Assembly (NCBI RefSeq): GCF_005233835.1
Contig: NZ_SZQA01000002.1
Coordinates: 186,001-250,000 of the forward strand
Reading direction: 5' to 3'
Source of the DNA: Herbidospora galbida
GTDB lineage: Bacteria > Actinomycetota > Actinomycetes > Streptosporangiales > Streptosporangiaceae
DNA length: 64,000 bases
Shown: positions 1,850 through 11,986 of the stretch, piece by piece
Numbering within the stretch: the first letter of the stretch is position 1
Layout of the letters: every line of letters starts with the position of its first letter
Notes under the pieces: model-generated
Seen by the model: the letters and a program-made list of their open reading frames with translations, nothing else
Databases searched by the model: none
Told to the model about the DNA's origin: nothing
Translations under genes and position numbers: made by a program

Positions 1850-3763
1850 GTGGATCGGCGGCAGTCGCTGATGGGTTTCTGGATAGGTCTCACCAGCACA
1901 ACGGTCGTGGCGCGAACGTTGTCTCTGACGTATCCACTCCTTGCTCTCGACCATTCGGGCTCCCCCATGGCGGTCGGTTGGGCGAGTTTCATGCTCGCAC
2001 TACCGGGATTCCTGTTTTATCTGCCTTTCGGTGCGATCATAGACAGAATCGACCCTTCTCAGCTTATGAGGTTGGTCGAAGTTGTTCGTGCACTTATGTT
2101 GCTACTTGTCGGTGGTCTGCTGGTCTACGACTTTCTGTCCCTTCCGGTGATTCTGGCCGCGGCCTTCATCGAGGGTGCGATGTGGATCGCCTATTCCCTT
2201 GCCGAAGCGGCCCTGATCCCGATGGTTCGCAGCGACCGGCTGACCCGGTTCCTCGCCTCCAGCGAGCGCAGCACCCAAGTGGGCTCCCTGATCGCCCGGC
2301 CGCTGGCCGGATTCCTCTACGGCCTGCAGCACACCGTGCCCTTCCTGGTCGCACCGCTCTTCCTGCTCGTCTCGGCGCTCACCGTGCCTTCGGCGCGAGT
2401 GCGACGGACGGAAGTCCGTGGTCGGCGGGAACCGCTGTGGGCGTCGATGGGAGAAGGGCTGCGAGAGCTGGCCCGGCATCGGTTCCTCATGGTCGCCGTC
2501 ATCCTGACGAGCACGACGAACTTGATGATCAATGCCTTGATCGTCGTCTTCATCGCCGGGTACGCGAGCGAACTCGACGCCGCCGACATCGGGTTCTACC
2601 TCATGTTCGGGAGCATCGGCGGGACCGTGGGCACGTTCTTGGCCAGGACCATCCGCCCGGAGAACTGGGTGCTCTACGTGCAGCTCGCCGTCGCAGCCGT
2701 CGCCATGCTGGCCATCGCCCTGCGCCCCAGTCCGGCGTCGTTCGCGCTGGGCCTGCTGCTGACCGGATGGGGCACCGCCACCAACATCGCCATGCGCAGT
2801 TATGAGGGCGTCTACGTCAGGCGCCGCAAACGGGCGCGGGTCGCCAGTGTCTCCCGTCTTCTCAGCCACACCGCCGTGACGGTCGCGGCCCCGCTGGGCG
2901 GTGCGCTGGTGACCGTCTCCGGAGTCGATCAGGCCGCTTCCCTGCTGGCCTGGGGGTTCGCGTTCGTGGCGGGGTCGCTGCTGCTGTGGAGAGTGGTCTC
3001 GTGGACGATCACGGTCGTGAGCCGGTACGCGAAGTACGGCGTCTACGGAATTTTCGACGCGCCGCGATTCGAGGCGATGGTGGGCGTGGTGGGCCTGCGG
3101 ATGGCCTCACTGGCCATCGGCCACCCGTTCGGCCAGGCGGTGGAGATGTGCCGGGAGTGGTGGTGCCTTCGCCGACATCGCGGCTGCGGCGAGATCGGCA
3201 GCTCCTGTGAGATTTCCGGCCTTCTGCTCGACCAGAGCCGCGTAAAGGAGGGCGGGACCGTGTTCCGCCGTGGTCGCGCGTACGGCGGTGATCTCATTCC
3301 GCGCTTCGTCGATATCCCCGCGGCTTGCCAGGGCGTACGCATAGGCGGCGCGGACCCATGGCTCACGTATCGAGCCGAGTCGCCCGAAGTCGATCAGAGC
3401 CTCGTCGGTACGGTCAAGGTGAAGAAGGATCTCGGCGCGGGTGCGCAGGGCGGGCCAGGAGTTGGCGTCGTCGTCGAGCACGCGGTCGAGCGTCCCGAGC
3501 GCGTTGTCCTCATGACCCCCGTACCAATAGGTCCACGCGAGCTCGATGCGGATGCCCTGATCGTCCGGAACCCGTTGGATGGCGGACTTGATGTCCTGAA
3601 TGGCGCGCCGCGTCTGGCCGAGCGCGCGACGGGCCCGGCCGCTTGCGGCCAGCAGACGGCCCACACTCTCCGTACGCCCGTGGACGTCGAAGAGGGCGGC
3701 GGCCTCGCGGTAATGGTCGATGGCCGTGGCGTACCGGCCGTCCTGGAAGGCGACGTCCCCTAG
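1850..3763 (+). CDS. MFS transporter with abnormal C-terminal read-through
   Basis: The first ~385 residues are a typical 12-helix major facilitator of the MFS_3 (EntS-like exporter) kind, with the GAIIDRIDPSQLMR loop after helix 2. GTG 1850 follows a GAAAGGTGG ribosome-binding site; ATG 1871 is an alternative start. The hydrophobic part ends near position 3005 (LLLWRVVSW). The frame then stays open for about 250 further residues to TAG 3761-3763, entirely antisense to the 3' end of the nSTAND1/TPR gene, and those residues look like shadow sequence. A TGA exists at 3018-3020 in the +1 frame, so either a frameshift or stop loss extended the gene, or a long convergent overlap is real. As part of the adjoining RiPP-like cassette it may export the peptide (inference). 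Confidence 0.7.
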   Translation: MDRRQSLMGFWIGLTSTTVVARTLSLTYPLLALDHSGSPMAVGWASFMLALPGFLFYLPFGAIIDRIDPSQLMRLVEVVRALMLLLVGGLLVYDFLSLPVILAAAFIEGAMWIAYSLAEAALIPMVRSDRLTRFLASSERSTQVGSLIARPLAGFLYGLQHTVPFLVAPLFLLVSALTVPSARVRRTEVRGRREPLWASMGEGLRELARHRFLMVAVILTSTTNLMINALIVVFIAGYASELDAADIGFYLMFGSIGGTVGTFLARTIRPENWVLYVQLAVAAVAMLAIALRPSPASFALGLLLTGWGTATNIAMRSYEGVYVRRRKRARVASVSRLLSHTAVTVAAPLGGALVTVSGVDQAASLLAWGFAFVAGSLLLWRVVSWTITVVSRYAKYGVYGIFDAPRFEAMVGVVGLRMASLAIGHPFGQAVEMCREWWCLRRHRGCGEIGSSCEISGLLLDQSRVKEGGTVFRRGRAYGGDLIPRFVDIPAACQGVRIGGADPWLTYRAESPEVDQSLVGTVKVKKDLGAGAQGGPGVGVVVEHAVERPERVVLMTPVPIGPRELDADALIVRNPLDGGLDVLNGAPRLAERATGPAACGQQTAHTLRTPVDVEEGGGLAVMVDGRGVPAVLEGDVP

Positions 3764-5080
3764 GAACGACTCGATCTCGGCCTTGAGGCGGGAGGAGTCG
3801 GTGCGGTCGAGCGCGTCTCTGGCATCGCGGCGGGCACGGGCGAAGTCGCCCTCGCGGAGGGCGTGCTGAGCGGTGTGGAGAAGCTGCTGGGCGGTTCGCT
3901 TGTCGACCACGACGTCGCCGGCCTCCGCACGGATGAGGCGGACGAGGCTCTCGTGCGACAGCTCGTACCACTGGGAGTCGTCTCCCGTGACGCCCGGGCG
4001 CGGGGTCAGGATGTGGTGGTCGACCAGGGCGGCGACCACATCGTTCGGGATTCCGGCCGTCATGGTCTCGCCCCGATAGACCGGCGTCTTGGCCGAGTCG
4101 GCGACGAAGTTGTCGAGCAGCCAGGCGCGCAGACGGGTCGTGTCGTCGTCGAGGTGGTCGCGGGCGACCTCGGCGATCGTCTGGTCGACGAACTTCTCCA
4201 GCGACTTGCGCACGTTGGCGTACCGGATGACGTGGTCGGTCGTGATGTGAGTGACGTCCGGAGGCAGCGAGTCCCAGAGAACCGTGCAGACGACCTGGAG
4301 CTGGACGGGTTCGATGGCCTTCGACTCCCGCGCGGTGCCGTCTCCGCTCAGGTCGTCGATCAGGCGCTGGGCGGCGGCGTCGTCGAAGGAGTAGCCGGTG
4401 CCGGTGAGCGGACCCGTGATGGCCTGGGTGGCGGCCGGTGGTTCCAGGGCGCCGAGCGTGAAACGCCCTTTGGTCATGACGTCGTGGAGGCGTTCGTCCC
4501 TGAGTATGGCGCCGGCCTGGTCGTTCCTGATCGAGATCAGCACCCGCAGGTCGGGATCCTTGCTGAGGGCGGCGAAGAGCTGGTCGAGGAACCACTCGTG
4601 ATACGGCGTCCGCCGGTGGTTCCCCAGGAACAGCTCTTCCGCCTGGTCGATCGAGGCCAGGCGGAGCACCGGATCGCCATAGCGGTCCTGCCTGGGCGGG
4701 CGGCGCAGGAAGAACCGCTCAAGGGTGAGGCTGGCCAGCCGGGACGGGCGCTCCCCCGGGGACCACGACGAGAGGAGCGCGTAGACATGGGGATTGTGCT
4801 CGGGCAGCGCTTCCCGGGGAGACGTGGAGGTGACCGAGACCCGTCCCACCGGCAGGATGTCGTTCTGCGACGGATCGAGCAGGGGCATGACGCCCGCGTT
4901 GAGCAGGGAGGTCTTCCCCGCGCCCGACGGGCCGGACAGCACCGTGATCTGGTTGGACCGCCAGAGATCGCAGACCTCGTGCGCCTCACGGGCCCGGCCG
5001 AAGAACTTGCCGCTGTCCTGACGGCGGAACGCGCGCAGGCCGACGTAGGGTTCGAGGGTCCGCTGATCTCGGCCGGTCAC
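3107..5080 (-). CDS. nSTAND1 NTPase with C-terminal TPR repeats
   Basis: The 657-residue protein starts at GTG 5080, which overlaps the TGA of the SIR2 gene (GTGA), so the two are translationally coupled. The N-terminus PYVGLRAF...FFGRARE (11-31) leads into Walker A GPSGAGKT (50-57) and a Walker B-like DQAEELF (145-151). This is the signature of the novel STAND NTPase 1 family found in conflict systems. A helical winged-helix-like part follows, then TPR-type repeats from about residue 440 to the end. STAND proteins usually sense a trigger through their repeats, oligomerise on ATP and switch on an effector; here the effector would be the SIR2 protein. The long upstream open frame to 5827 is only the shadow of the SIR2 gene. 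The 3' 657 bp overlap antisense with the MFS reading frame. Confidence 0.85.
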   Translation of the reverse strand: MTGRDQRTLEPYVGLRAFRRQDSGKFFGRAREAHEVCDLWRSNQITVLSGPSGAGKTSLLNAGVMPLLDPSQNDILPVGRVSVTSTSPREALPEHNPHVYALLSSWSPGERPSRLASLTLERFFLRRPPRQDRYGDPVLRLASIDQAEELFLGNHRRTPYHEWFLDQLFAALSKDPDLRVLISIRNDQAGAILRDERLHDVMTKGRFTLGALEPPAATQAITGPLTGTGYSFDDAAAQRLIDDLSGDGTARESKAIEPVQLQVVCTVLWDSLPPDVTHITTDHVIRYANVRKSLEKFVDQTIAEVARDHLDDDTTRLRAWLLDNFVADSAKTPVYRGETMTAGIPNDVVAALVDHHILTPRPGVTGDDSQWYELSHESLVRLIRAEAGDVVVDKRTAQQLLHTAQHALREGDFARARRDARDALDRTDSSRLKAEIESFLGDVAFQDGRYATAIDHYREAAALFDVHGRTESVGRLLAASGRARRALGQTRRAIQDIKSAIQRVPDDQGIRIELAWTYWYGGHEDNALGTLDRVLDDDANSWPALRTRAEILLHLDRTDEALIDFGRLGSIREPWVRAAYAYALASRGDIDEARNEITAVRATTAEHGPALLYAALVEQKAGNLTGAADLAAAAMSAKAPPLPAHLHRLAERVADGQ

Positions 5081-5967
5081 GGCATGGCTCCCATCCGCTC
5101 GCGTAACTCCTTGCAGAACTCGTCGATGCCCCCCCAGTAGACCGAGATCTGCCACTCGGCGTAATACCAGTTCAGCAGGCCCTCCATGTCCTCGATGGTG
5201 TAGCCCGAGGTGGGGGCGAGCTGGATGCTCACATGGCGACGCCTGCTGATCGCCGGGATCGACCGGCCGAGTTCCTGGAACAGCATCCGGAACGTCGAGT
5301 CCTGCAGGCTGTATCCGACGAACAGCAGCGGGCGGGTGGTCAGCGCGGCGAGGATCGACGGAGGGAACATCCGGGTCGTGCCGTTGGTGCGCTCGATGAT
5401 GAAATTGCGCAGGAACACCATGTAGTCGTCTTCGGCCAGCACGAAGCTGGCCGGATCGCGCATCGCGCCGTGCAGGTGGTAGACGAGCGGGGTCGCCGGG
5501 CTGGGGTTGAAGCCGGGGGTCTCGGCGAACAACGGGTCGGGGGCGATGGTTTCGGTCCACGGGCAGATGGCCGCGATGGCCGACTTCGTACGCGTCGCGA
5601 GCGCCTGGACGATGAAGTCGTCGTAATTGGTGGTCAGGTAGACCGGCAACGGGAAGTCGGCCAGCAGGGCGTGCGGCTCGTTCGGGTTGGTGAAGTCGGG
5701 TGTCTTGGCGTCCTCGGTCAGCACGTCCCGGACCCGGTTCTTGACGTAGTGGAGATCGCCGTACTTCACGCCAGCGTATTGGGCCACCCGGAGGAGTTCG
5801 GTGCCGTTCGGCCCTGGGTAACCGCACATGGCCGCGAGTTTCTCACTGAGCTCGGCGCCCGACGGGAGAACGCTCGCTGAGGCGCCGGCGCCCACGAAAG
5901 GAGTGCAGTGGCCGGCCCTCAATTGATAAATGAGCCGTTCCCAATCCTCGTCGCGCATTTCGCCCAT
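5077..5967 (-). CDS. SIR2-family protein (predicted NADase effector)
   Basis: The 296-residue protein carries the SIR2 Rossmann NAD-binding signatures of bacterial defence SIR2 proteins: VGAGAS (25-30), LTTNYDDF (111-118), YHLHG (163-167, catalytic-type histidine) and FVGYSLQD (216-223). No zinc-binding Cys quartet of classical deacetylases is visible. Such proteins (as in Thoeris, DSR, Avs5 and SIR2-APAZ) usually degrade NAD+ rather than deacetylate. ATG 5967 has a GGTGGAG ribosome-binding site 6 nt upstream; the longer frame to 6087 lacks one. It overlaps the nSTAND1 gene by 4 bp and lies 146 bp downstream of the peptide gene on the same strand. An NADase function is family knowledge, not shown here. 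Confidence 0.85.
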   Translation of the reverse strand: MGEMRDEDWERLIYQLRAGHCTPFVGAGASASVLPSGAELSEKLAAMCGYPGPNGTELLRVAQYAGVKYGDLHYVKNRVRDVLTEDAKTPDFTNPNEPHALLADFPLPVYLTTNYDDFIVQALATRTKSAIAAICPWTETIAPDPLFAETPGFNPSPATPLVYHLHGAMRDPASFVLAEDDYMVFLRNFIIERTNGTTRMFPPSILAALTTRPLLFVGYSLQDSTFRMLFQELGRSIPAISRRRHVSIQLAPTSGYTIEDMEGLLNWYYAEWQISVYWGGIDEFCKELRERMGAMP

Positions 5968-6113: not shown

Positions 6114-6263
6114 TCAGATGAAGTTCTGGAACCCCGAACTCGTCGTGGCAGGGGCTTCGACGAAGTGTTCCAGCAGCCCACGGAGGGTTGCGTAGGGCAC
6201 TTCGCTGGCGGCGTTCAGGAGTGGTTCCCCGCTCGCCGCAGTACCACGCGCAGCATCGATCAT
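6114..6263 (-). CDS. Candidate cyclophane RiPP precursor peptide (FxSxx-COOH-like)
   Basis: A 49-residue frame starts at ATG 6263 with GCGAGGA 4 nt upstream and ends at TGA 6114-6116. It begins MIDAARGTAASGEPLL, has a short helical leader-like segment (ASEVPYATLRGLLEHF), then a small-residue stretch (APATTSSG) and the C-terminus FQNFI. FxsA precursors end Phe-x-Ser-x-x-COOH after a similar leader; here Phe is at -5 but Asn replaces Ser at -3. Aromatic-x-Asn is a crosslinking motif known from other three-residue cyclophane (triceptide) maturases. The gene sits divergently from the FxsT-like gene, in the same cluster as the FxsB-like maturase 4 kb away. The mRNA leader contains a perfect 6-bp stem, GGCCGC/GCGGCC (6307-6323). 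No alternative precursor was found next to the maturase gene. Confidence 0.68.
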   Translation of the reverse strand: MIDAARGTAASGEPLLNAASEVPYATLRGLLEHFVEAPATTSSGFQNFI

Positions 6264-6359
6264 TAAGTCCTCGCCTTCAGCGGCAGCCGAAATGGGAGTT
6301 ACGGTTGGCCGCCTTTCGCGGCCCGGGCGCCATTGACGAACTTGCTGTATAGATGAGTT

Positions 6360-6389
6360 TTGAACAGGCTCTGGCGCGAAGCAAGTAAT
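6360..6389 (+). promoter_or_regulatory. Possible promoter of the FxsT-like gene
   Basis: TTGAAC (6360-6365) and AGTAAT (6384-6389) are separated by 18 bp. The predicted start point leaves a leader of about 20 nt carrying the GGAGG ribosome-binding site at 6407-6411. It is a sequence match only. Confidence 0.35.
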
Positions 6390-6415: not shown

Positions 6416-8944
6416 ATGGTCGCCGAACCCTCCTCGCTAGCGACGCACTCACTCGGGGACAAGCAACCGGAGATCTTCGAGCGGGTCCCACCCCGGAACC
6501 GGAACTTCACCGGACGGGAGAGCCTGCTGCATCAGCTACGTGAGGGCACCCGCTCGGTGACCGCTGTCATCCCGCTGCCGCAGGCGCTGCAGGGATACGG
6601 CGGTGTCGGCAAGACCCACCTGGCCATCGAATACGCCTACCGCTACCGCTCCCATTACGACCTGATCTGGTGGATCCCGGCCGACCAGTACTACCTGGTC
6701 TCCTCCGCCCTGGCGGCGATGGCGCCCCATCTCGGGCTGACCCCCGCATCGGTCGTGGGCGTGGAGGAGGCGGCCGACGCCGTGCGTGAAGCGCTGGAAC
6801 AGGGTGCTCCGTACAACAACTGGCTACTGATCTTCGACAACGCGGAAGACGCGCGGATCGAGAAGTTCATCCCGCGCGGTCCCGGCCACGTGATCATCAC
6901 CTCGCGCGACCCGAACTGGGACGACCAGTTCCGGTCCCTGCAGGTCGACGTGTTCTCCCGGGAGGAGAGCATCGAGTTCCTCACGAAGAGACTGGGGTCG
7001 CGCATCACCAGAGAAGAGGCGTTCCGGCTGGCCGACAAACTGGGTGACCTGCCGCTGGCCCTCGAACAGGTCGGCGCGTTGCAGCGGCGCAGCACCATGA
7101 CGGTCGACGACTACATCGAGTTGCTCGACAAGCAGACCGCGCGGCTCCTCGACACCGACCGGGCCAAGGACTACCCCCTGACGATGACGGCAGCCTGGCG
7201 GGTGTCGATGTCGCTGCTGGAAGAACGCCTCCCGATCGCGCTCAACCTGCTGCGATGCTGCGCCTTCTTCGGGCCCGACCCGATCCCCCTCGACGTGTAC
7301 CGGCGCGGCAACAAGGCCAACGCGCCGAGCCTGGAGAAACTGCTGGCCGACCCGATCATGTTCGACAAGTCGGTGAAGGAGCTCAGCCGCTACGCGCTCA
7401 TCCGGAGCGACCCCGACAACCGGACGATCCAGGTGCACCGGCTGATCCAGGCGCTGCTGCGGGCCGACCTCGACGAGGAACGGCAGACGCAGCACCGCGC
7501 GGAGGTCCACCGCCTGCTCGCGGGAAGCGCGCCGCAAGTGCCCGACGACAACTCCAAATGGGGTGACTTCGCCGATCTGGTGCCCCATGTCGGGCCTTCG
7601 CAACTGCTGGGGTCGTCCGAGCCCGAAGTCCGTGAGTTCGCCCTCAACGTGGTGCGCTACCTCTACTCCTCAGGTAACTACCCGTCGGCGCTGGAACTGG
7701 TCGACACCTTCATCAACGACTGGGGCAAGTCCCGGGAGAACCACCCCGACGTACTGCGGGCCCGCCGCCACCAGGCCAACATCCTGCGCCGCATGGGTGA
7801 GTACAGCACGGTCTACGATCTCGACCGCGCCACCCTCGACATGGTGATCGCCGAGTTCGGTGCGGAGCACCCCGAGACCCTGATCGCGACCAACGGTCTC
7901 GGCGGCAGCATGCGCGCCCGCGGCGATTTCCGGACCGCGCTCGAACTCGACGAAGAGTCGGTCCGCCAGCATGAGCGCCTGCTCGGCGAAGACCACGTGC
8001 TCACCCTCCGGGCCAAGAACAGCCTCGCCCTCGACTACGGCCTCAACAGCCGCTACGAACAGGCCAGAAAGCTCCACACCGAGGTCTACCTGGCACAGAG
8101 TGAGGCACTCAACCCGGCCAGCGCCGAGATCGTGCTGCTCTCGCGCAACAGCATGGCCCGGGCCGTGCGGCTCACCAACGGTTTCGAGGAGGCCTGCGAC
8201 ACCGGTGAGGCCGCCATGGCGTTCGGGGTGCAGAAGCTCGGCCGCGACCACTGGGCCACCCTGATCACCGCGAAGGACCTGTCGATCGCCCAACGGCGCG
8301 CGGGCGCCCTCAACGAGGCCATCGACATCGCGCGAGACACTCACACCCGGCTTACCCGGCTCTTCGGCGCCCGCCATCCCGACACGATCGCGGCCGCCGT
8401 GAACGTCTCCAACGTCCTGCGGGTGCGCGGAGACCTCGCCGAGGCGTACGAACTGGCCGCGGAGATGACCAGAACCTATCCGCTGGTGTACGGCGACGAG
8501 CACCCGTTCACGCTCGCCTGCATGACCAACCTGGCGATCCTGCACCGCCTGCTCGGCAAGCCCGAAGAGGCGCGCGTCCTCAATGAGACCGCCCGCGACG
8601 GCCTGACCGAACGGCTCGGCCCCGACCACCACTACGTCCTTTCGTGCGCGGTGAACCTGGCCAGTGACCTGGCCGCCCTGGGCCGTCGCGAGGAGGCGCG
8701 GCAGCACGGCGAGGCCACGCTCGACCAGCTCACGCGCCTGTTCGGCCGCGACCACTTCCTGGCCATGGCCTGCGCCGCCAACCTGGCTCTCGACCGGGAG
8801 GCGGTCGGCGCGCCCGACGCGGACAAACTGAAGGCGGAGGCGGCCGACCTCTACCTGGAGCGGCTCGACCTCGGCCAGCCAGACGCGGTGACCGCCGCGT
8901 CGGGCAACCGCATCGACTGCGACTTCGACCCGCTACCGATCTGA
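6416..8944 (+). CDS. fxsT: FxSxx-COOH-system NB-ARC/TPR protein (FxsT-like)
   Basis: The 842-residue protein opens with VPPRNRNFTGRESLL, the hallmark N-terminus of the tetratricopeptide protein that accompanies FxSxx-COOH RiPP loci. Walker A is GYGGVGKTH (60-68), Walker B LLIFDNAED (137-145), and the NB-ARC GLPL-type motif is GDLPLALEQ. The second half holds about seven 42-residue TPR_10/kinesin-light-chain-like repeats, each with a [LV][FYL]Gx[DE]H core (for example KLGRDHWATL, LFGARHPDTI, VYGDEHPFTL). ATG 6416 has GGAGG 4 nt upstream. The protein is probably a cytoplasmic ATP-driven sensor or scaffold; its molecular role in these loci is not established. Its 3' end overlaps the HExxH gene by 12 bp, convergently. 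Confidence 0.85.
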   Translation: MVAEPSSLATHSLGDKQPEIFERVPPRNRNFTGRESLLHQLREGTRSVTAVIPLPQALQGYGGVGKTHLAIEYAYRYRSHYDLIWWIPADQYYLVSSALAAMAPHLGLTPASVVGVEEAADAVREALEQGAPYNNWLLIFDNAEDARIEKFIPRGPGHVIITSRDPNWDDQFRSLQVDVFSREESIEFLTKRLGSRITREEAFRLADKLGDLPLALEQVGALQRRSTMTVDDYIELLDKQTARLLDTDRAKDYPLTMTAAWRVSMSLLEERLPIALNLLRCCAFFGPDPIPLDVYRRGNKANAPSLEKLLADPIMFDKSVKELSRYALIRSDPDNRTIQVHRLIQALLRADLDEERQTQHRAEVHRLLAGSAPQVPDDNSKWGDFADLVPHVGPSQLLGSSEPEVREFALNVVRYLYSSGNYPSALELVDTFINDWGKSRENHPDVLRARRHQANILRRMGEYSTVYDLDRATLDMVIAEFGAEHPETLIATNGLGGSMRARGDFRTALELDEESVRQHERLLGEDHVLTLRAKNSLALDYGLNSRYEQARKLHTEVYLAQSEALNPASAEIVLLSRNSMARAVRLTNGFEEACDTGEAAMAFGVQKLGRDHWATLITAKDLSIAQRRAGALNEAIDIARDTHTRLTRLFGARHPDTIAAAVNVSNVLRVRGDLAEAYELAAEMTRTYPLVYGDEHPFTLACMTNLAILHRLLGKPEEARVLNETARDGLTERLGPDHHYVLSCAVNLASDLAALGRREEARQHGEATLDQLTRLFGRDHFLAMACAANLALDREAVGAPDADKLKAEAADLYLERLDLGQPDAVTAASGNRIDCDFDPLPI

Positions 8945-10204
8945 CGACCCGTGCCGGGCCTCCCAGGAGGCCCGGTGCCCGTCGGCCGCCTTCCTGCCGG
9001 CGGTCAGCGCCTCTTCGTCGAGAGCCTCAGCCAGCACCGTGCCGAGGCGGACGCGCATGCCCTCGACGAAGGTGATCCCGGCGGAGGTGAGGAGACGCTC
9101 GTTCTCCAGGGTGTCGAGGACGAGCCGCACGCCCTCCCGCCACCGCGCGAGTTCGACGCGGCCGCGGATGCCTTCGTACGGATGCTGGCGCTGCCAGAAC
9201 TCGGTGACCCCCAGGTAGGCGTAGGCGCCCTGGAGAAGGCCGTGAGCGGGTCTGGGGTCGGGCCGCCAGGGGGCGTAGTAGGTTTCGGTCCGCTCGTAGC
9301 GCACCAGCGGGACCAAGTGCATGAGCGCGTCGAGTTTGGCGTGCTGGATCTCGTGGGCGAACGTCTCGGCGAGCCAGGCGGGGGAGCCCTTCGGGGCGGA
9401 CATGGCGATGGTGCCGAAGGTCTCCCTGGCCGACGAACTGCTGACGCCTTCCGGCGGTGCCGCGATGGGGGTGAGGGCCCGCACGATCGCCACGACCTCC
9501 TCGGCGACGCCCGGATGGTTCTCGCGCAGGACGTGCCAGGCTTCGGGGAGCAGGGACCGCCAGGCGGGCAGGTCTTCGGAGGCGAGCCGGGGGGTCACGC
9601 GGTTGGGCTCCGGCCAGCGGTAGGGGTCGAGGTCGTCGAGGGTGACCGAGAAGCCGTCGTCGATACGGATCCGGTGCAGCACCTGCCAGGCGGGCCCGTC
9701 GGCGGCCGGATCGGCTTCGGCGCTCCAGTCGCCCGCATCGAGGACGCCGCCGGCCACCTCGATCTCTCCTGAGGTCCCGGCGGGGGCCAGCCGGCCGAGG
9801 CCGGGCAGCATCAGGCCGCCGTCGTCGTCGAGGAGCGCCTTCACGCGGCACGACGCACCCGAGGCGACGGCCGCCGCGAGGGCGACGGCCGCCAGGCGGG
9901 CAGGCCGTTCCTGGCCGCGTGCCCGGAGTGAGCGGAACGTCCGCCAGGCCCAGGCGCCGACGGCGGGGTGCTGCAGGATCCGGCCCACCGCGGCGGGAGC
10001 GTCCGCCTCCAGGGCGAGCAGGGTGGCATGGGCCGCGTCGGCCAGGGCAGCGTCGGGGTGGCCGGACAATCGGGATTCCTCGACGACCCCCCGGAGCAGC
10101 CCGATGCGGCGGCGGACCTGTATGCCGTTGAGCTCTTCGGCCGCTTCCGCGTTGGCGGGTTCCTCGGCCAGCGCGCGGAAGGTCTTGTCAGAGACCGTAG
10201 TCAT
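8933..10204 (-). CDS. HExxH-motif putative peptide beta-hydroxylase (RiPP tailoring)
   Basis: This 423-residue protein carries HEIQH at 284-288 inside AETFAHEIQHAK, preceded by GTIAMSAP. That arrangement is typical of the HExxH putative peptide-modification family, later described as alpha-ketoglutarate-dependent peptide beta-hydroxylases, which travel with FxsB-type radical SAM enzymes. No signal peptide is present, so it is not a secreted zinc protease. The N-terminal ~200 residues are alpha-helical and alanine-rich and may bind the leader peptide. ATG 10204 overlaps the stop of the upstream maturase gene (ATGA), so the two modifying enzymes are co-translated. Predicted substrate: the 49-residue peptide at 6114-6263. 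The reaction is assigned from family knowledge. Confidence 0.8.
   Translation of the reverse strand: MTTVSDKTFRALAEEPANAEAAEELNGIQVRRRIGLLRGVVEESRLSGHPDAALADAAHATLLALEADAPAAVGRILQHPAVGAWAWRTFRSLRARGQERPARLAAVALAAAVASGASCRVKALLDDDGGLMLPGLGRLAPAGTSGEIEVAGGVLDAGDWSAEADPAADGPAWQVLHRIRIDDGFSVTLDDLDPYRWPEPNRVTPRLASEDLPAWRSLLPEAWHVLRENHPGVAEEVVAIVRALTPIAAPPEGVSSSSARETFGTIAMSAPKGSPAWLAETFAHEIQHAKLDALMHLVPLVRYERTETYYAPWRPDPRPAHGLLQGAYAYLGVTEFWQRQHPYEGIRGRVELARWREGVRLVLDTLENERLLTSAGITFVEGMRVRLGTVLAEALDEEALTAGRKAADGHRASWEARHGSSDR
8954..8975 (+). terminator. Terminator hairpin of the FxsT-like gene
   Basis: CCGGGCCTCC (8954-8963) and GGAGGCCCGG (8966-8975) form a perfect 10-bp inverted repeat 9 bp after the stop codon. 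It lies inside the last codons of the convergent HExxH gene. Confidence 0.6.
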
Positions 10205-11439
10205 ACACGTCCCTTCAATCGGGCGGTGTCACGGGCGTGCCGATCGCTGATGTACGAGATCAGCCGATAGAGGTCGGGGCAGTAGACCGAAGGGCCGCGG
10301 AAGCCGGCGCCCGGCCGGAAGCGATGGGCGTAGAGGCCGCCGCCGCAGACCTCCATCAGGTCGCAGGCGGTGCACTCCGGGCCGAGCGCGGCCGCGCCGA
10401 GTTGCCGCGCGACGATCGCGGGGAAGCCGAGGGCCGCGTCGAACGGGTGGTCCCGCACGTGGAGGCCGGTCGCCGAGGCGCCTTCATAGGCCGATTTCAG
10501 GATGTCGGACTGCTCGATGTCGCCGTTGGTCTCCACGACCATCATCAATGAGGGCGACAGGCCCACCGCCTCGGTCCGCGACGGGAAGCCGGAAAGCAAC
10601 CGCTGAATCTCGTGGAACAGCCGGATCTCAGTACGGAACGTCACCGCCCCCCGCCACTCGTCGAATATCTCGATGAGCCAGTCGGCATAAGGCGTCAACG
10701 GCGAATGGGGCTCGCGTTCCGGGGGCGGCGCCGCCCAGTTGCCGTGGGGCAGCAGGAAATCGACGCTCGGCGGGTCGAATTCCAGCAATGCGTGATAGGT
10801 CTCCAGAGGGTCGTTTCTCAGGTCGATCGTGCACAGGATGCCGGCGAACAAATGGTGGAACGGCCCGTCGGTCAGCGAGCGCAGCGCCCGGCTCACCTGC
10901 CGGTGGCTGCCCCTGCCGTTCGCGAAGAGCCGAGTCCTGTCGTGCGCCGCCGCGGTTCCGTCGAGGCTGACTCCGATGCGTATGTCCAGTTCATCGAAGA
11001 GTCTCAGATACGCCTCGTTCAGGCGGACTCCGTTGGTCTGCATGCTCACCCGTACGCGGGTGCCGATCTCCGAGCATTCCCCGCGGATCGTCCGCACGAT
11101 ATGGGCGAGGGATTCCGGCCCGGCGAGGAGCGGTTCCCCTCCGTGCAGGATGACGTCGATATCGGCGAGCCGGTGGGTGCGGGCGTGTTCCGCTATGCGG
11201 AATGCCGTGTGCTTCACGATGTCGGGCGACATTTGGCGCGGCTGATCGCGCCAGCCCTGGTCGGCCATTTCATACACGTAGCAGCCCGGGCAGGCGAGAT
11301 CGCATCGGCTGTGCACCTTGAGGATGAACTGCCGAAAGGGGGACGGCCGCCATCCCGTGGCCAGCAATTCCGCGACGTCGAGGTTTGCCGGAAATACGTT
11401 TTCGGGCAGCGGGGTCGTGAGTTCGTGGTTGTTCGCCAA
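10201..11439 (-). CDS. fxsB: FxsB-family radical SAM/SPASM cyclophane-forming maturase
   Basis: The protein (412 residues from TTG 11439) has the FxsB N-terminal signature FRQFILKVHSRCDLACPGCYVYE. The [4Fe-4S]-binding cysteines are C46, C50 and C53 (CxxxCxxC), followed by VILHGGEPLL. The C-terminal SPASM region is CTACDLMEVCGGGLYAHRF with a later YCPDLY. FxsB enzymes join an aromatic ring carbon to the beta-carbon of the residue two positions on. TTG 11439 is chosen over the longer frame (TTG 11463) because it has an AGAAGGG ribosome-binding site about 8 nt upstream and fits a promoter at 11468-11496. The HExxH gene follows with a 4-bp overlap. Confidence 0.9.
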   Translation of the reverse strand: MANNHELTTPLPENVFPANLDVAELLATGWRPSPFRQFILKVHSRCDLACPGCYVYEMADQGWRDQPRQMSPDIVKHTAFRIAEHARTHRLADIDVILHGGEPLLAGPESLAHIVRTIRGECSEIGTRVRVSMQTNGVRLNEAYLRLFDELDIRIGVSLDGTAAAHDRTRLFANGRGSHRQVSRALRSLTDGPFHHLFAGILCTIDLRNDPLETYHALLEFDPPSVDFLLPHGNWAAPPPEREPHSPLTPYADWLIEIFDEWRGAVTFRTEIRLFHEIQRLLSGFPSRTEAVGLSPSLMMVVETNGDIEQSDILKSAYEGASATGLHVRDHPFDAALGFPAIVARQLGAAALGPECTACDLMEVCGGGLYAHRFRPGAGFRGPSVYCPDLYRLISYISDRHARDTARLKGRV

Positions 11440-11467
11440 CCGGCACACCCTTCTTTGCGCCAACCCT

Positions 11468-11662: not shown

Positions 11663-11986
11663 ATGCTCCGCCGCGCCCTGACCCTCCTAGCCGCCGCCAC
11701 CCTCACCGCGACGACAGTCCTCACCGCCCCGGCTCAAGCCGTCATCGTGAATCTCAACTTCGGCCCTCTCAGCATCGGCGAATACTGCGCCGCGAAGATC
11801 CACCCGCAGGCCTGGCTGGGCCTCTACGAGGCCTCAGGCCTGCGGTGCTACACCCCGCAGGGATCGGGCCTGATCTACCGAGGCCAGGGCGACCCCTACC
11901 TCGCCTGCAAACACCTCACGACAGACGTCATCGCAGGCGCCACGAGGATCGCCGGTGACGGCCTCAGCTGCCAGGCCGTCCGCTAG
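11663..11986 (+). CDS. Small secreted protein, uncharacterised
   Basis: The product is 107 residues with a clear Sec signal peptide: MLRRAL, a hydrophobic alanine-rich core and an AQA cleavage site near residue 29. The mature part is about 80 residues with four cysteines (in EYCAAK, LRCYTP, LACKHL, LSCQAV), which probably form two disulfides. GGAGG precedes ATG 11663 by about 5 nt. The gene follows a perfect palindrome at 11607-11621 and overlaps the convergent SnoaL-like gene by 4 bp. I do not recognise the family; similar small Cys-paired secreted proteins are common in actinomycetes and are mostly uncharacterised. Confidence 0.75.
   Translation: MLRRALTLLAAATLTATTVLTAPAQAVIVNLNFGPLSIGEYCAAKIHPQAWLGLYEASGLRCYTPQGSGLIYRGQGDPYLACKHLTTDVIAGATRIAGDGLSCQAVR

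Follow-up and report, generated by a model that had tools for sequence, protein, structure and literature searches.

A conserved gene for a probable FxsA-like precursor with a Phe-Gln-Asn core beside an FxsB maturase in Herbidospora galbida

A 64,000-nucleotide stretch of the Herbidospora galbida genome, here called the window, carries a gene for an FxsB maturase, and the question that the locus raises is which gene encodes the peptide on which the enzyme acts. The candidate is a 49-codon frame whose product ends in Phe-Gln-Asn-Phe-Ile rather than in the Phe-x-Ser-x-x of the FxSxx peptides. The original prediction took it for a precursor-like gene of an FxsB system with a Phe-x-Asn core in place of Phe-x-Ser, and held that FxsB enzymes seldom have Asn as the acceptor. 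The former claim is supported by the comparisons described below; the latter is not. The peptide is best read, from these comparisons, as a diverged FxsA-like cyclophane precursor with a putative Asn acceptor in the triplet Phe45-Gln46-Asn47.

The gene lies on the minus strand at positions 6114 to 6263, with the coding part at 6117-6263 and the stop codon at 6114-6116, and encodes the 49-residue peptide MIDAARGTAASGEPLLNAASEVPYATLRGLLEHFVEAPATTSSGFQNFI, the core of which is SSGFQNFI-COOH. A ribosome-binding-like GCGAGGA (6268..6274, read 6274-6268 on the minus strand) stands 4 bases before the ATG and is kept in close species. The elements first noticed in this gene, namely the 49-codon frame, the GCGAGGA before its ATG, a helical leader, a spacer and the FQNFI end, are thus all present on the minus strand. 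The original prediction named no strand; an unrelated frame occupies 6114-6263 on the plus strand and gives no sensible peptide.

The original prediction implied that the frame and its C-terminus should be conserved in close relatives, and they are. The peptide is encoded in six of seven Herbidospora genomes, one of which carries a second paralogue, and each of the seven copies ends in SSGFQNF followed by Ile or Met. Residues S42 to F48 are invariant in the seven-sequence alignment, across two paralogous lineages, and the copies of the FQNFM group (n = 2) are 51–53% identical to the window peptide overall. The start codon is pinned because the open frame of two species is only 50 codons long. 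Codon changes fall more often on third positions than on first and second positions in most comparisons. Between paralogues, the last eight codons hold 2–3 synonymous changes and one non-synonymous change, and the preceding 27 codons hold 8–14 synonymous and 11–15 non-synonymous changes. The codons TTC CAG AAC TTC show no variation among the copies, synonymous changes included, so that for those four residues taken alone it cannot be proved that selection acts on the protein and not on the DNA. The 49-codon frame is a real gene, more than a chance frame, and it is clearly conserved in Herbidospora although unannotated.

The neighbours belong to recognised families. The FxsB gene (10201..11463, minus strand) encodes a radical SAM/SPASM cyclophane-forming maturase that scores 459 bits with TIGR04269 against a cut-off of 370 bits; it possesses the motif CDLACPGC (CxxxCxxC) and the SPASM cysteines C364, C367, C373 and C395, and its nearest solved structure is ChlB (9gm3, E 6e-71). 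Next to it lies a gene for an aKG-HExxH-type peptide beta-hydroxylase (8933..10204, minus strand; TIGR04267, 155 bits against a cut-off of 40), in which HEIQH is intact. The NB-ARC/TPR protein of FxSxx-COOH systems (6416..8944, plus strand; NF040586, 957 bits) is encoded divergently from fxsA and convergently with the FxsB and HExxH genes. Downstream of fxsA, and co-directional with it, come a gene for a SIR2_2 NADase-like protein (5077..5967, minus strand), which resembles Thoeris ThsA and has the motifs GAGAS, TTNYD and HLHG, and, directly after it, one for an nSTAND1 NTPase with TPR repeats (3107..5077, minus strand; PF20703). The start of the SIR2 gene was set at a conserved MGEMRDEDW by comparison with relatives. 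Within the divergent region between fxsA and the TPR gene, an intergenic element at 6341..6367, TGTTCAAAACTCATCTATACAGCAAG in the minus-strand reading, is largely kept by eye among the copies of the genus, including the paralogous modules, and may be a shared promoter or operator. Divergent from the FxsB gene, at 11663-11986 on the plus strand, is a gene for a small, secreted-looking protein of 107 aa that matches no Pfam or NCBIfam family; related sequence stands beside FxsB in other Herbidospora loci.

Among the 80 loci nearest to the window FxsB, some of which are cut by contig ends, a TPR gene was found in 73, an HExxH gene in 66, a STAND gene in 46 and a SIR2 gene in 25. Many Streptosporangiaceae loci show the same gene order, and most of these have a Phe-x-x peptide in the matching place. 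The genome from which the window comes has further Fxs loci (L093, 15057-15227 and 19630-19815; L094, 6712-9042), with the cores FTSSY and FQSAY and one fused FxsB-HExxH protein.

Is the peptide, then, an FxsA? The family model TIGR04268, with a curated cut-off of 28 bits, does not match it at E values up to 10, and a profile of 72 FxsA sequences built without the Herbidospora group places the frame fourth in the window, at E 0.68. A better precursor near the maturase would have undermined the original prediction; none reached a significant score in the window with that same profile, the best being at 46 kb with E 0.12. Profile–profile comparison of the Herbidospora peptides with 18 other FxsA sequences, by contrast, aligns 35 columns covering leader and core (E 2.2e-6, probability 89%). 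The gene also occupies a conserved slot, beside the genes for FxsB and the FxSxx-TPR protein, and peptides of intermediate character are known. A Streptosporangium peptide in the equivalent slot ends in SSGFQSWI, and a second Fxs locus of H. daliensis encodes a peptide with a canonical leader and the core SGFQNFL that fits the FxsA profile at E 3e-11 and scores 19.8 bits with TIGR04268, below the cut-off. That cut-off is nevertheless passed by some peptides in which Asn, Ala, Glu or Gln stands in place of the Ser. Since direct profile tests fail while profile–profile alignment, slot and bridging peptides succeed, the peptide is FxsA-like rather than a strict member of TIGR04268. We consider it likely that the gene encodes the FxsA-type precursor of the window FxsB. 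The weak similarity of its leader to those of other FxsA peptides would also suit a conserved small protein with an unmodified C-terminus and an incidental likeness to Phe-x-Asn, but this is made highly improbable by the place of the gene in the module, the invariance of the core, the bridging peptides ending FQSWI and FQNFL and the profile alignment. What has been identified is a real gene for a probable precursor that the standard family model misses.

The Asn itself proved to be commonplace. Beside 73 FxsB enzymes, a sample chosen for nearness to the window FxsB and with cores assigned by eye from the aligned C-termini of FxsA-like frames, the third core residue is Ser in 33, Asn in 23, Ala in 8, Gln in 8 and Asp in 1. 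A class-wide sample of 30 fetched TIGR04268 matches, which is itself biased to Ser, gives Ser 22, Asn 5, Ala 2 and Glu 1. On the FxsB tree there are at least eight changes between Asn and other residues, an approximate figure, since the tree was built quickly and several of its branches are weak; an origin of Asn as a novelty of a single lineage is rejected on this tree. The exchange of Ser for Asn is therefore common in the FxsA family, not exceptional, and the novel specificity claimed for this locus is unsupported. Nor is Asn tied to the HExxH hydroxylase, as Asn cores occur both with a detected HExxH gene (L022, L025, L027 and L028) and without one (L019, L023, L024, L044 and L047). The first core residue is variable too, being His in two loci and Tyr in one class-wide match. 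FxsA peptides ending in HQSSV, with His for Phe, lie above the TIGR04268 cut-off at L040:13430-13639 and L041:13429-13638, and the ends AAHGS/AAHNT are seen at L076 and L078. A precursor candidate from Nocardia (L070:7626-7865) contains GNFNSFI twice, possibly two cores in one peptide. The Ser by which FxSxx peptides are defined is thus replaceable across the FxsB family, which predicts that FxsB tolerates several acceptors and is relevant to peptide engineering.

The leader, about residues 1-37, would guide FxsB, which would then link Phe45, through a ring carbon, to Cbeta of Asn47. The resulting three-residue cyclophane would be followed by a C-terminal dipeptide. The Phe45–Asn47 ring is, in our judgement, rather more probable than otherwise. 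Its chemistry has precedent, as XncB and OscB form a bond from Phe-C4 to Asn-Cbeta, so that a Phe-x-Asn ring is in itself nothing new, and MscB forms a bond from Phe-C4 to Ser-Cbeta (review, PMC11002830). In the open-licence literature, we found no report of a Phe-x-Asn ring made by an FxsB enzyme, and nothing in which FxsB and cyclophane are mentioned together. So many residues occur at the third position (S, N, Q, A, D, E) that it may be passive, with FxsB crosslinking Phe45 elsewhere than to Asn47, e.g. to Gln46 or outside the triplet. This is very unlikely, however, as the bond lies between residues i and i+2 in the three-residue cyclophanes that the review covers (PMC11002830), and the position right behind Phe is at least as variable. 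With the ring at Phe45–Asn47, it is plausible that Phe48 stays free, as was remarked at the outset: it cannot start a three-residue ring of its own because one residue alone follows it.

The cyclised peptide would probably then be hydroxylated by the HExxH protein. This aligns with 22nu and ChlH, with HExxH and a PWRxDxRPxxGLLxxxY-like stretch largely kept, and ChlH, a HExxH relative, hydroxylates a cyclophane peptide (PMC12636437). As regards the site, a ring at Asn47 would mean that the beta carbon of that residue is already taken.

What the finished peptide might do is suggested by the organisation of paralogous modules. In one Herbidospora genome (G005; L089/L092, C25:328000-353000), a single FxsB/HExxH pair precedes two fxsA-TPR-SIR2-STAND modules, whose peptides have the cores FQNFM and FQNFI; one pair serving two modules implies that the peptide travels with the TPR, SIR2 and STAND genes. 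Another genome (G004; L090, 13685-19284) has a second TPR-SIR2-STAND module with long open frames for all three proteins but no fxsA, of which flanks resembling the upstream region remain. The effector therefore does not strictly require the peptide at its side, unless both modules make use of the neighbouring FQNFM peptide. The modified peptide would most readily work within the cell, binding or regulating the NB-ARC/TPR, SIR2 and STAND proteins, which together would form an NAD-linked conflict module; we propose this intracellular regulatory role tentatively, at a little short of an even chance. In a bolder scheme, which we regard as unlikely, the cyclised, hydroxylated peptide would be the ligand of immune-like receptors within the cell, a set made up of NB-ARC/TPR with SIR2 and nSTAND1. 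Selection of the third ring residue would then lie with the receptor pairing and not with FxsB, so that this residue would drift freely among Ser, Asn, Gln and Ala and a shared maturase would serve several peptide–receptor modules.

Two other roles have to be weighed against that of an intracellular regulator. The mature peptide might be exported as an antimicrobial or a signal via a nearby MFS transporter (about 1850-3763, plus strand), a relative of which accompanies the STAND gene in 29 of 46 loci. Shared synteny in one family explains this link equally well, however; many FxsB loci lack the MFS gene, which in the window points towards the module. The precursor has no apparent signal peptide, a dedicated leader protease was not recognised among the genes of the module, and export is accordingly distinctly unlikely. 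We attach a similarly low probability to an antitoxin-like peptide that keeps the SIR2/STAND effector silent. Such a role would suit a peptide gene directly upstream of and co-directional with the SIR2 and STAND genes, present once in each module in most loci, but some loci in which no SIR2 gene was detected retain fxsA, and a strict antitoxin is hard to reconcile with the full-length TPR-SIR2-STAND set of G004, which persists after loss of its own fxsA. Kaur et al. (2020; PMC7159879) predicted that FxSxx peptides are toxins or signals that amplify a conflict system, and no experiments on what these peptides do were found in the open-licence literature. The SIR2/STAND neighbourhood, together with one maturase for two peptide modules, offers a concrete route to their function.

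The locus has much in common with the FxsA (TIGR04268)/FxsB (TIGR04269) systems, i.e. an FxsB above the cut-off, FxSxx-TPR and HExxH partners, a short leader and a Phe-x-X-x-x C-terminus, but it differs from them in having Asn for Ser and a leader too diverged for TIGR04268 to report. MscB, which we take to be a member of the FxsB family, belongs to a triceptide system with the Phe donor and the i to i+2 geometry predicted here, although its acceptor is Ser rather than Asn. The predicted Phe-x-Asn ring is like that of the XncB and OscB triceptides, whose maturases are of different subfamilies. ChlB, the closest solved relative of the window FxsB, makes multiple cyclophanes, and ChlH (8s5f), a relative of the window HExxH protein, has Asp and His as its targets. 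The systems described by Kaur et al. (2020; PMC7159879) likewise combine an FxSxx peptide, an HExxH protein, a radical SAM enzyme and an AP-ATPase/TPR protein; there, however, the HExxH protein was read as a peptidase and the AP-ATPase partners are of the TIR type, whereas here fxsA is followed by SIR2 and nSTAND1 genes.
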